A DNA stretch of 64,000 nucleotides. Source: Leifsonia sp. AK011 (lineage in GTDB: Bacteria > Actinomycetota > Actinomycetes > Actinomycetales > Microbacteriaceae). Shown here one piece after another: positions 4,010 to 63,040 of the stretch. Numbering within the stretch: position 1 is the stretch's first letter; the number at the start of each line of letters is the position of its first letter. Made by a program: the position numbers and the translations under genes. The DNA is taken from contig NZ_JACCCH010000001.1 in the NCBI RefSeq assembly GCF_013410945.1, forward strand, positions 2,418,001 through 2,482,000, in the 5' to 3' direction. The notes under the pieces are model-generated. The model was not told the origin of the DNA. It did no database searches and saw only the letters and a program-made list of their open reading frames with translations.

Positions 4010-4075
4010 GTTAGTTGCATCTCCTCCTCTTCTGGCCTTGTGGAAAGAACCTATCCCCAGATTCATCGCCGACTC

Positions 4076-4091
4076 TAGAACATGCGTTCGA
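4076..4091 (+). promoter_or_regulatory. Probable LexA (SOS) box
   Basis: TAGAACATGCGTTCGA matches the actinobacterial SOS box TCGAAC-N4-GTTCGA at all but one conserved position. It lies 19 bases before the ATG of the DUF222-HNH gene. Several 13E12-repeat genes of Mycobacterium tuberculosis, the same protein family, are known LexA targets, which supports the call. Confidence 0.75.
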
Positions 4092-4110
4092 GCTTTGGGA
4101 GAATGGATGC

Positions 4111-5547
4111 ATGACCCTCTCCACCGCTTCGTATGCCGCTCTGGCAGACCTCGCGGTGCCTTTTGCGCCCCCATCGCCTCATGGTCTCGACGACTCCGAG
4201 CTCCTTGCACTGAAGCGTGAGCTTGCCGAGATCCGTCGGCGATTGGATGCAGCAGATTCCGCAGTGTCTGCGGAGATCGCCAACCGCTCACGCCCCGAAC
4301 TCGGCTACGACGGCCTGGCGCAGCGGCTCGGCGCGCGCACCCCGGAGAAGCTCATTCAGCGCGTGGCAGGAGTCACCGCTCGCGACGCGCGCACGCAGAT
4401 TCGGGTGGGTGGCCTTGTGGCGTCGTTGACGGATGACGCGCCTCCTGCCGAGCCATGGCTGCGCCCCGTCGCGGCGGCCGTTGCCGCTGGCGACCTGTCG
4501 CTCGACGCGGCGGACGCGATACGAACCGGGCTGGGAAAGCCCGGTTCGGGAGTGACTGTCGCGGCTCTCTCGGACGCCGTCGAGCGACTCCTGCACTACG
4601 CACGGGAGCTCACCATCGAGAAGCTCGGTGCTCGGGCTCGGGAGATCCGCGCATCGCTCGACGCTGAGCACGTCGCCGAGCGAGAGGAGCTGCTTCGGTC
4701 GCAGAGGTATCTGCATCTCGTCCCGTTGTCGACCGGCATGACGCGACTCGACGGCTTGCTCGACCCGGAGTCCGCGGCACAGGTCACCGCCGTGTTCGAC
4801 GCGGCCACCTCACCCCGCCGCGGCGGGCCGCGTTTCGTGGACCCCACTGCCGCGGCGGCGCAAGCGGACGCCCTCCTCGAGGATTCGCGCACGACCGAGC
4901 AGATCGCGCTCGACACCTTCGTCGAACTGCTGCGCCTCGGCACGCTCGCCGACGTCACAGCGTTCATCGGTGCCCGCAAGCCAGCAGTGCAGGTTCTTGT
5001 CACCCAGGCGGACCTCGACCGGCAGGCTGGGGTGGCCTTCATCGAAGGGCAGAGCGAAGCGCTCAGCACCCAGACCGCGAAGCGGCATGTGTGCGAATCG
5101 GGCTCGCTGCCGATCCTGATGGAGAGCGGCCAGGTGCTGAACCTTGGTCGTGAGCTTCGGCTCTACAACCGCAAGCAACGGATGGCGCTTGCAGCCCGCG
5201 ATGGCGGATGCATCTGGCCCGGTTGTGACCGACCACCATCGTGGTGTGAAGCGCATCACATCGTGGAATGGTCCCGCAACGGTCGCACCGACATTGCCGA
5301 TGGAGTACTGCTCTGCAAACACCATCACCTCCTGGTGCACAACAACGGGTGGCAGATAATCCGTCGCGGCAGCCAGTACGCGATTGTGCCGCCCGCGGCC
5401 ATCGATCCGAGTCGAACTCCGCGAATCGTCAGGACGAAGAGTCCTGCGATGAGACGACTGGAATCGCTGCAGAAGCACCCGCCGGCGCGGACTCTGGCCG
5501 ATCCGCCGCCTCCGCCGCAGCAAGCACGGGAGCTGGTGTCGGTATGA
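4111..5547 (+). CDS. DUF222 / 13E12-repeat family protein with C-terminal HNH nuclease domain
   Basis: 478 residues. Start ATG 4111 follows GGGAG by nine bases; an upstream ATG at 4015 has no support. Residues 25-330 are the helical DUF222 region. The HNH domain spans about 367-415 with paired cysteines (CIWPGC, C367/C372), the His pair in EAHHIVEW (H382/H383) and CKHHHLLVHNNGW (from C402), all intact for metal binding and catalysis. The tail is Pro-rich. A LexA box sits just upstream, so it is likely DNA-damage-induced. Its target is unknown. The 3' end overlaps the convergent EamA gene by 119 bases. Confidence 0.92.
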   Translation: MTLSTASYAALADLAVPFAPPSPHGLDDSELLALKRELAEIRRRLDAADSAVSAEIANRSRPELGYDGLAQRLGARTPEKLIQRVAGVTARDARTQIRVGGLVASLTDDAPPAEPWLRPVAAAVAAGDLSLDAADAIRTGLGKPGSGVTVAALSDAVERLLHYARELTIEKLGARAREIRASLDAEHVAEREELLRSQRYLHLVPLSTGMTRLDGLLDPESAAQVTAVFDAATSPRRGGPRFVDPTAAAAQADALLEDSRTTEQIALDTFVELLRLGTLADVTAFIGARKPAVQVLVTQADLDRQAGVAFIEGQSEALSTQTAKRHVCESGSLPILMESGQVLNLGRELRLYNRKQRMALAARDGGCIWPGCDRPPSWCEAHHIVEWSRNGRTDIADGVLLCKHHHLLVHNNGWQIIRRGSQYAIVPPAAIDPSRTPRIVRTKSPAMRRLESLQKHPPARTLADPPPPPQQARELVSV

Positions 5548-6595
5548 GAGAAGTGTTGTCGGTGCCCGGGATTGCCTGCGCCTTGTCATCCACCGAACCG
5601 GGCTCGAGGGGCACATCGGCCTGCTTCTCCGAGCGCACCAAGGCGATGCCCCCGAGGATCGCTACGCCTCCGAGCAGTTGCAGAAGGGTGAGCGCCTCGC
5701 CGAGCAGCATCCACGCGAAGATCGAGGCGAACACCACCTCGAGCAGGCCGACGAACGACATGAGGCGGGAGCCCAGCATCTCGGATGCCGCGATGCTCGT
5801 CACGTACGCAACCGCAGTGCCGACCACCCCGACGAAGACCAGCGGCAGCCACCACGCGACGTCAGCACCGAACAACGAAACATCATCGAAGTCCATGCTG
5901 AAGGGCACGAGACCCACGAGACCGGTGACACCAAGTACGACCGAACCGAGGAGAAGGCCGAACGCGGCGAAGGCCACCGGCGGAAGACCGTCGCTCGGGC
6001 GGGCCGCGATGAGGTAGTAGATCGCGCATCCCACAGCCGCCAGGCCGGCGAAAACCAGACCCAGACCATCCGAGGCCCCCAAGGAACCAGGACCGATGAC
6101 CATCACGAGACCACTGATCGCGACTGCAGACCCCACGAGCACGACGGCCTTCGGCGCGCGACGCGTGGAGACCCACACGAATCCGACGAGCAGCAGCGGG
6201 GCGAGGTACTCGATCAGCAGCGCGGTGCTCACGGGGATGCGCTGGAGGGAGGCGAAGTATGCGAGTTGCGTGCCCGCGACGCCGATGAGGCCCATGCCGA
6301 CGATGCGCCAGCGAGCACGCCACACCGAATCCCAGCGGCCACGCAGCGCGACGAGCGCGACCGGGAGTAGAACGATCGCCCCAATGCCGGCGCGGATCGT
6401 GACCGCCGCCGCTGGGCTCCACCCGGACTCGAGGAGCGGCTTCAGGAAGGCGCCGGAGGTGGCGAACGTGAGCGAGGCGATCACGCCGATGATGAGGCCG
6501 CGGGTAGTGCGGGGCAGGCCAGTGCCGGTGGTTACCGGAGTCGCCAGACGCGTGCTGGAGTGAACGACGGCGGCACGCGAAGCAGGAGAACTCAT
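5429..6595 (-). CDS. EamA-family (DMT) inner-membrane transporter
   Basis: 388 residues. About ten hydrophobic helices between residues 30 and 325 arranged as two EamA repeats (GLIIGVIASLTFATSGAFLK and the second from about residue 185), the layout of drug/metabolite transporters such as amino-acid exporters of the RhtA type. Substrate unknown. The C-terminal 60 residues are a polar Ala/Pro/Ser tail beyond the last membrane helix; this tail is encoded opposite the Pro-rich tail of the HNH gene. ATG 6595 follows GAGG. It is divergent from the CGNR gene across 102 bases, and that neighbour could be its regulator. Confidence 0.88.
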   Translation of the reverse strand: MSSPASRAAVVHSSTRLATPVTTGTGLPRTTRGLIIGVIASLTFATSGAFLKPLLESGWSPAAAVTIRAGIGAIVLLPVALVALRGRWDSVWRARWRIVGMGLIGVAGTQLAYFASLQRIPVSTALLIEYLAPLLLVGFVWVSTRRAPKAVVLVGSAVAISGLVMVIGPGSLGASDGLGLVFAGLAAVGCAIYYLIAARPSDGLPPVAFAAFGLLLGSVVLGVTGLVGLVPFSMDFDDVSLFGADVAWWLPLVFVGVVGTAVAYVTSIAASEMLGSRLMSFVGLLEVVFASIFAWMLLGEALTLLQLLGGVAILGGIALVRSEKQADVPLEPGSVDDKAQAIPGTDNTSLIPTPAPVLAAAEAADRPESAPAGASAAIPVVSSQDSSS

Positions 6596-6697
6596 GGCGA
6601 CCTCACGAAGGTGACAGGGGTGGCGTTGCCCACCGCATGTAATGACCGAAACTGACTACGCTCATGACAGTAGACTCGTGACAGATAAGGAGTCAAG

Positions 6698-61846: not shown

Positions 61847-62722
61847 ATGGATCTCCCCCAGCTCGAGGCCCTCGCTGCGGCCGTCGACACGGGCACGTTC
61901 GACGCTGCTGCGCGGGCACTCAATGTCACGCCCTCCGCGATCAGCCAGCGCATCCGCGCGCTCGAGAACTCCGTCGGCGGGGTGCTGCTCACGCGGGGCA
62001 AGCCCGTGACGGCGACAGCTGCTGGCATCCCCTATCTCCGTCTTGCACGTCAGATCGAGGCACTCGCAGCGGATGCCGCGACCGAGGCGACTCCAGAGAA
62101 AGGGGCGGCGTTCCCCGTCATACCGCTCGCCATCAACGGGGATTCCCTCGCCACCTGGGCACTCCCCGCGCTCGCGTCCCTCGCGGACGAGCTCACGTTC
62201 GACATCCACCGTGAGGATCAGGACCACTCGTGGGACCTGCTCCGCGACGGCACCGTGATGGCGGCGCTCACGACCGAGGCACGACCAGTGCAGGGATGCA
62301 CGTCCACCCCTCTCGGAGTGATGCGCTACCGCCCCATGGCCACGCCGGACTTCGTCGCACGCTGGTTCGGCGATGGAGTTGCAGCATCCGCCCTCAACGC
62401 GGCGCCCGTCGTGGTGTTCGATCGCAAGGACGACATCCAGGATCGCTACCTCCGCTCGTTCGGCAAGGGCCTCACTCCCCCGCGGCACCACGTTCCGGCG
62501 TCGACCGAATTCGCCGAGGCCGTGCGACTCGGCATGGGGTGGGCGATGCTTCCCGACCAGCAGTCGTTCGGTCCGGAGTCGCGCGGCGAACTCGTGGAAC
62601 TCGCTGGCGGCAAGCCCGAACACGTCGAGCTCTACTGGCAGCAGTGGGCGCTCCACACGACCGCGCTCGACCGGGTCGCCGACGCCATCGCGCGAGCGGC
62701 CCGCGAACTGGCTCACTCGTAG
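61847..62722 (+). CDS. lysG: LysR-family regulator (LysG/ArgP type)
   Basis: 291 residues from ATG 61847 (MDLPQLEALAAAVDTGTFDAAARALNVTPSAISQRIRALE), a standard LysR winged HTH, followed by a periplasmic-binding-like effector domain. LysG/ArgP sense intracellular lysine/arginine and activate the exporter gene on the divergent strand. Its 3' end overlaps the 83-residue gene on the other strand by 10 bases. Confidence 0.93.
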   Translation: MDLPQLEALAAAVDTGTFDAAARALNVTPSAISQRIRALENSVGGVLLTRGKPVTATAAGIPYLRLARQIEALAADAATEATPEKGAAFPVIPLAINGDSLATWALPALASLADELTFDIHREDQDHSWDLLRDGTVMAALTTEARPVQGCTSTPLGVMRYRPMATPDFVARWFGDGVAASALNAAPVVVFDRKDDIQDRYLRSFGKGLTPPRHHVPASTEFAEAVRLGMGWAMLPDQQSFGPESRGELVELAGGKPEHVELYWQQWALHTTALDRVADAIARAARELAHS

Positions 62723-62964
62723 ACGCGCACCACGATCCACTCGCCGCCGATCTGGCGGATGTCGAACATGCGCGAGCGGTCGTCGTCATCCGTGCCCTGG
62801 AAGCGCCATCCGACGAGATCGAGCGGGTGCGTGAGCCCCGCGATCTCGTCCTCAAGATGGGTCGGGGTATCGGTCACCCGGTAATGGCGACCCTCCCAGA
62901 CGAGGCCATACGGCACCCCGCCCTCGAACCAAATGGTGAGCCGCGTGGCATCGATCAGGGTCAT
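62713..62964 (-). CDS. Uncharacterised 83-residue protein with SOS-controlled promoter
   Basis: 83 residues, acidic and Trp/Arg-rich: RLTIWFEGGVPYGLVWEGRHYRV, VGWRFQGTDDDDRSRMFDIRQIG, ending GEWIVVRVYE. Mostly beta-strand by appearance. No firm family; the W-x-G-R-x-Y-x-V motif and the basic VRVY(D/E) end resemble the small DUF6504-type proteins associated with actinobacterial mutagenesis cassettes, but this is a guess. ATG 62964 follows GAGGAG by five bases. Two LexA boxes flank its promoter (62981-63040), so it is probably DNA-damage-induced. It sits between lysG and DUF2469. Confidence 0.8.
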   Translation of the reverse strand: MTLIDATRLTIWFEGGVPYGLVWEGRHYRVTDTPTHLEDEIAGLTHPLDLVGWRFQGTDDDDRSRMFDIRQIGGEWIVVRVYE

Positions 62965-62980
62965 GGCATCTCCTCGGCGC

Positions 62981-63040
62981 TCGAACTTGTGTTCGAAGAT
63001 TACGTCGAGTCATCGCGACACGCCAAAACATATGTTCGAA
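62981..63040 (-). promoter_or_regulatory. SOS promoter with two LexA boxes
   Basis: On the minus strand: -35 TTGGCG (63026-63021), an 18-base spacer and -10 TAATCT (63002-62997). Immediately downstream is a perfect LexA box TCGAACacaaGTTCGA (62996-62981, covering the likely start site); immediately upstream, overlapping the -35, is TTCGAACATATGTTTT (63040-63025), a second near-match. Both fit the actinobacterial SOS box TCGAAC-N4-GTTCGA. Confidence 0.85.

Follow-up and report, generated by a model that had tools for sequence, protein, structure and literature searches.

Introduction

The question raised by this locus is whether a short minus-strand reading frame, lodged in an otherwise conserved block of genes, is a genuine SOS gene and what its 83-residue product might do. 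The window, i.e. the whole 64-kb stretch of DNA that was analysed, corresponds to positions 2418001-2482000 of a genome of 3,013,378 bases. An earlier note on this DNA had proposed that the gene is read from a promoter held between two LexA boxes and that its product, of no clear family, may be a new SOS effector. The relevant features, in window coordinates, are as follows.

62713-62964, minus strand: gene for the 83-residue protein, stand-alone and ImuB-C/DUF6504-like (open reading frame and homologues, ATG start)
62970-62975, minus strand: GAGGAG, likely ribosome-binding site (direct reading)
62981-62996: LexA box 1, 12/12 match to TCGAACN4GTTCGA (genome scan and conservation)
62997-63002, minus strand: -10 hexamer TAATCT (direct reading)
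63016-63024, minus strand: element GGCGTGTCG (CGACACGCC on the plus strand), conserved in promoters of the family and overlapping the -35 hexamer
63021-63026, minus strand: -35 hexamer TTGGCG (direct reading)
63024-63039: candidate LexA box 2 (9/12), which overlaps both the -35 hexamer and GGCGTGTCG and is not conserved across the family

The gene, its surroundings and its distribution

The reading frame at 62713-62964 is a genuine gene under purifying selection (dN 0.07-0.22 vs dS 0.6-1.0 among four relatives), and both its ATG start and the upstream GAGGAG are present as had been described. The flanking genes in the window encode DUF2469, RNase HII, a LysR-type regulator, LysE and UPF0102, which confirms the reported position in the rnhB-yraN block, next to DUF2469 and the LysR/LysE pair. 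Placement between DUF2469 and LysR/LysE is common to L006-L008; in genome G016 (L057) the family gene lies inside the block too, but past LysE, and the remaining family loci inspected have positions outside it. Among the neighbours listed for the family loci inspected in this way there is neither a polymerase gene nor any gene common to the whole family. The window gene resembles a single-gene unit and is not adjacent to dnaE2, which in this genome is ~0.6 Mb distant.

A scan of a genome collection returned a sole relative, 75% identical, in Salinibacterium soli; homologues were found in 11/27 genomes of the genus and in 137 of the 299 Microbacteriaceae genomes sampled, and a phylum-wide scan of 296 genomes gave three matches, all in Microbacteriaceae. 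Two homologues are carried by plasmids, both again from Microbacteriaceae (L320 in Gryllotalpicola protaetiae and L321 in Microbacterium hominis), one of them two genes away from a gene for an SOS-response-associated peptidase, and the phage records scanned contained no homologue. The family as counted below comprises 150 loci (L006-L046, L074-L076, L107-L112 and L220-L319), a set that includes close relatives (e.g. L013 and L014) and two loci beside DnaE2 (L318 and L319). Next to six of the 150 loci (L012, L013, L240, L045, L312 and L314), in some cases divergent and in others downstream, is a small protein whose N-terminal part has the motif GTNKRY.

Probable LexA control

Conservation of the operator makes LexA (SOS) control of the window gene very probable. 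The perfect box announced downstream of the promoter is borne out, since the site at 62981-62996 is the only one in the 3,013,378-base genome that matches TCGAACN4GTTCGA at 12/12 positions, and it agrees with the consensus tCGAAC-N4-GNNCGa that the available portions of a study of Streptomyces venezuelae LexA give (PMC9380542). A single site can be due to chance, the genome having 31 sites that depart from the pattern at no more than one position, against 10 for a reversed control pattern. Among 149 family loci with at least 160 nt upstream, the best box is 12/12 in 83, 11/12 in 51 and 10/12 in 8, so that 134/149 have a box of at least 11/12 just upstream and 142/149 one of at least 10/12, in keeping with the earlier proposal of an SOS-controlled gene and contrary to the outcome, relatives with the gene but without the boxes, that the note had named as a refutation. 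At this last threshold the reversed motif scored 0/149 and a downstream stretch 4/148. A box of at least 10/12 is missing in seven loci (L302, L315, L018, L017, L313, L285 and L307), which is what could be said, along with the background of genomic sites, for the view that the matches arose by chance and that SOS control is absent; the boxes of at least 11/12 in 134 homologous loci, amid varied neighbourhoods, make this view most improbable. Because the neighbourhoods differ between family loci, the box must travel with the gene. Two of the seven, L017 and L018, form a divergent paralogue group from two genomes of the genus, with no LexA box of even 8/12 in the upstream stretch scanned.

Since LexA box 1 abuts the -10 hexamer, bound LexA would cover the transcription start site. 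LexA sitting beside the -10 and over the start would thus keep the gene off, and its removal upon DNA damage would allow the protein to be made alongside the products of the LexA-boxed ImuA'-ImuB-DnaE2 cassette. Damage induction of the window gene is to be expected from this arrangement.

A radical-SAM gene, two DUF222 genes (one with an HNH domain) and imuA each have at their 5' end one of the other 11/12 sites considered in the genome, and there is one more at L130. Within the window, a LexA-like box of 11/12 (TAGAACATGCGTTCGA) is found at 4076-4091, at the 5' end of a long plus-strand reading frame (4015-5547) that looks DUF222/HNH-like by eye. In mycobacteria, PafBC recognizes the pattern TGTCRGTG-N8-TAnnnT. 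Sequences close to this pattern can be seen by eye in the imuA promoter (L129 ~6240-6265) and in the LexA-boxed promoter of L130 (~6610-6645), which suggests joint control of these two promoters by LexA and PafBC.

One LexA box and a second promoter element

The minus-strand promoter is present as stated, with a spacer of 18 nt between TTGGCG and TAATCT, and relatives have -10-like hexamers at comparable spacing (by eye). The upstream box had been called near-perfect. However, its sequence, TCGAACATATGTTTTG, matches at 9/12 positions only, and second sites of at least 9/12 occur in 17/149 family loci vs 25/148 for the best site in the downstream control stretch, so that the proposed double LexA control is not a feature of the family. 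At the corresponding position, 10/12 matches are seen by eye in L008 and 8/12 in L007, and L009 and L010 have none there. A lexA site of similar quality in S. venezuelae (TCGAACGTGTGTTT) is listed as bound in the portions of the same study available (PMC9380542), and by analogy LexA may bind at 63024-63039.

What marks the promoter's upstream half, in place of a conserved second LexA box, is GGCGTGTCG, which overlaps the -35. Eight family promoters compared have TTGGCGTGTCG in common, the first six bases of which are the -35 hexamer; across 134 family promoters it is found at 11/11 in 44 and at 10/11 in 22, and neither its reversed nor its shuffled version reaches 10/11 in any. Scored at 8/9 or better on either strand, GGCGTGTCG is present in 96/142 family promoters, against 6/142 for the reversed motif and 6/142 for a stretch inside or after the gene. 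The window as a whole has one exact copy only.

The same element is found at imuA, where 28/52 promoters carry it at 8/9 or better on either strand (control 2/52), including the promoter in this genome:

L129 6228-6236: copy of GGCGTGTCG/CGACACGCC at the imuA promoter of the same genome

In the genus, 25 of the 26 LexA-boxed imuA promoters have GGCGTGTCG at 8/9 or better, on the other strand and 36-37 nt before the LexA box; the 26th (L172) reaches only 7/9, and the 27th imuA locus (L178) has no LexA box. Where a genome of the genus has the gene as well as an imuA promoter with a LexA box, the element is present at both (10/10). In five other Microbacteriaceae, it is at neither promoter in three, at both in one and at the gene only (8/9) in one. 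The element is less frequent in promoters of the DnaE2 type linked to ImuB-C (4/24 vs 0 in the control) and in those of DUF6504 genes from other families (6/30 vs 1). No copy was found within 150 nt of the genome's four remaining LexA boxes or of the window box at 4076.

A probable divergent relative of ImuB-C

Single-sequence scans of the window protein gave no Pfam or NCBIfam match, and a PDB sequence search no match either. The statement that it has no clear family thus holds for such scans, but not for profile comparison, which leads to DUF6504/ImuB-C. In a Pfam scan of 16 family members (alignment A1), two touch DUF6504 weakly (best E 0.031) and one PAS_3 (0.08). The window protein has no match to DUF6504 (PF20114) and so does not reach its gathering cut-off of 24.2 bits, two family members exceed it (L076, 25.2; L291, 25.5) and two fall below (L318, 22.6; L310, 20.0). 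By hhalign, a profile of 39 family members aligned to 12 DnaE2-linked proteins with a score of 69.5 (E 9e-12; best of 60 column shuffles 25.3) and to 56 ImuB tails with a score of 32.2 (E 2e-5, or 3.5e-4 in the opposite direction; best of 60 column shuffles 18.3). Compared directly, the small alignments A1 and A2 gave a weak match (E 0.0038, probability 8.8%), and larger alignment sets gave probabilities of 19-77%, varying with set and direction. Because these direct scores are weaker, the link to the ImuB tail runs mainly via DUF6504.

We equate DUF6504 with the domain that Aravind and co-workers called ImuB-C, as far as the accessible part of that work describes it (PMC3765255). In a 507-aa Methylosinus ImuB from an annotated ImuA-ImuB-DnaE2 cassette, residues 429-504 score 29.0 bits against the DUF6504 profile, hence the correspondence with ImuB-C; the profile stays below the cut-off on a Sinorhizobium ImuB (19.4) and has no match in the ImuB of the present genome or in a Streptomyces ImuB. 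In 198 genomes of the order, the family profile has three matches outside Microbacteriaceae, each of them an independently found DUF6504 gene a short distance upstream of a DnaE2-like reading frame. The 11 DUF6504 regions L116-L126 all have a DnaE2-like reading frame downstream within ~4 kb, with a Y-family start motif in eight; we presume these reading frames beside DUF6504 genes to be DnaE2-like or Y-family from characteristic start motifs and ORF size. The one product of these that was scanned, P0001, passes the DnaE superfamily model but, at 650.8 bits, falls short of the cut-off of 939 for the model of error-prone polymerase. A LexA box of 11-12/12 precedes 30/30 fetched DUF6504 loci, and L117, a further DnaE2-linked one, has no box of 11/12. 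In Microbacteriaceae with the ImuB-C-linked DnaE2 type, a reading frame directly upstream of this DnaE2 is hit by the DUF6504 profile (E values as low as 1e-12) and, less strongly, by that of the family.

The W..R.WW loop, a marker defined in the present analysis and not derived from the literature, is found in 29/30 DUF6504 and 12/12 DnaE2-linked proteins but in only 1/150 family loci, and the window protein is without it; WW alone is found in 31/150. The one exception, L318 (G029), lies 16 nt upstream of DnaE2 and combines the loop with the family motifs VTDxPT and WRFQ. A C-terminal YD is present in 52/56 ImuB, and the commonest ends in the family are YD (48) or YE (25) among 149. In a FastTree phylogeny of 144 unlinked, 14 DnaE2-linked and 8 DUF6504 sequences, based on ~80 aligned residues and with a non-monophyletic outgroup, the 144 unlinked sequences form one clade (local support 0.85) and L318 is next to all of them (0.94), which is only suggestive of a single clade of unlinked proteins with L318 beside it. 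AlphaFold models the window protein as mostly beta, with six strands (pLDDT 82.3, pTM 0.70), and the ImuB tail of the same genome with seven (pLDDT 95.6, pTM 0.85). The order of the last five strands agrees between the two, compared by strand order, and both have a three-residue helical turn ahead of the WRFQ strand. A PDB fold comparison of the window protein model gave no clear or close match among those listed.

Taken together, it is likely that the window protein is related to ImuB-C. The best description is of a free-standing, diverged relative of a domain already known from DnaE2 mutasomes, ImuB-C/DUF6504; it is neither a filed member of DUF6504 nor a protein of a new kind. In the predicted models it has the five-strand order of the actinobacterial ImuB C-terminal domain, with which it also shares the WRFQ core, a W near the end and the terminal Y-acid pair, although direct profile similarity is weak to moderate and, unlike that domain, the protein is free and not the tail of an inactive Y-family polymerase.

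Stand-alone versions of ImuB-C as such are already known, from what could be consulted of PMC3765255, PMC6511836 and PMC12926913. Those of the actinobacterial DnaE2-[ImuB-C] and DnaE2-[ImuB-C]-PolY systems (PMC12926913) are, like the window protein, small, beta-rich and related at profile level, usually with a LexA box in front. However, the window gene is not linked to a polymerase, its genome already has ImuA'-ImuB-DnaE2, and its product lacks both the W..R.WW loop and a DUF6504 match. Solo ImuB-C operons, such as the lexA-imuB-C-polY operon of Geobacter (PMC3765255, PMC6511836), likewise hold an SOS-linked stand-alone ImuB-C, but together with polymerase, LexA, Ku/ligase, SRAP or other repair genes, whereas the window gene looks to stand alone. 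Two things were not met in the literature searched, which includes partly accessible sources, and are possibly new: an orphan family in Microbacteriaceae, LexA-boxed and present alongside ImuB, and the shared element GGCGTGTCG.

A proposed role in the DnaE2 mutasome

The genome has ImuA' (NF058630, E 3e-54), ImuB (IMS) and DnaE2 (NF004225, 1431 bits) in a row behind a LexA box of 11/12, and a second Y-family gene that is DinB-like by score. ImuB is present in 27/27 genomes of the genus and the window gene in 11/27, so that the mutasome does not need the latter, which is an optional extra. In the draw of 198 genomes from the order, 58 had DUF6504 and 107 a match of ImuB grade (E no higher than 1e-30), with an overlap of one (G382); the two thus look nearly mutually exclusive.

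Conservation of the LexA box, homology to ImuB-C/DUF6504, the presence of ImuA'-ImuB-DnaE2 in the same genome and a shared second promoter element were all computed. From these we infer damage induction, the binding partner of the protein and the direction, help or restraint, in which it would act. The ImuB tail appears in published models, as far as the text at hand presents them, as a beta-barrel that contacts the PHP domain of DnaE2 and ImuA (PMC12926913). The free ImuB-C-like protein would probably dock on the same PHP domain and/or on ImuA', and in doing so modulate assembly or activity of the DnaE2 machinery. An SOS-induced free ImuB-C-like subunit that modulates the DnaE2 mutasome is, in our estimate, slightly better than an even bet.

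Loss of the W..R.WW loop suggests an altered interface and leaves room for a helper as well as a brake. A positive accessory role is favoured, by analogy, because the linked stand-alone versions serve DnaE2 mostly where ImuB is not found. As a brake or decoy, the free domain would compete with the ImuB tail for DnaE2 or ImuA' and damp mutagenesis once accumulated. This would fit a protein that resembles one domain of a protein already in the genome, has the same kind of operator and has lost the loop, as expected of a partly kept interface. However, it is rather unlikely, since the DnaE2-linked stand-alone versions are mostly without an ImuB-grade match (57/58 DUF6504 genomes, the exception being G382) and are presumably positive parts there.

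Partners outside the mutasome were also considered, in the form of a DnaE2-independent damage sensor or adaptor that works with DinB, SRAP or another repair factor and spreads as accessory cargo. The patchy presence of the family, the two plasmid copies (one near the peptidase gene), an MCGR-type SRAP start within the fetched flanks of 4/150 loci and the earlier proposal, in the part of PMC3765255 consulted, that ImuB-C is a damage-recognition domain all point this way. Against it, no neighbour listed is common to the whole family, and GGCGTGTCG ties the gene to the imuA promoter in the genus, which makes such a role improbable.

Returning to the mutasome subunit, one may tentatively picture its origin as a single detachment from a dnaE2 operon in Microbacteriaceae, giving a free SOS-inducible ImuB-tail protein that retunes ImuA'-ImuB-DnaE2 and is wired to imuA through LexA and a second regulator reading GGCGTGTCG; this is possible, if doubtful.

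Significance

Conservation of GGCGTGTCG suggests that some SOS promoters in this group answer to a second regulator as well. A natural free-standing relative of the ImuB tail, probably under LexA, offers a compact handle on what this tail does alone, and the family lets one ask whether damage-induced mutagenesis carries a built-in modulator. For bacteria that carry it, a free relative of the ImuB tail under apparent SOS control hints at stress-tuned mutation.
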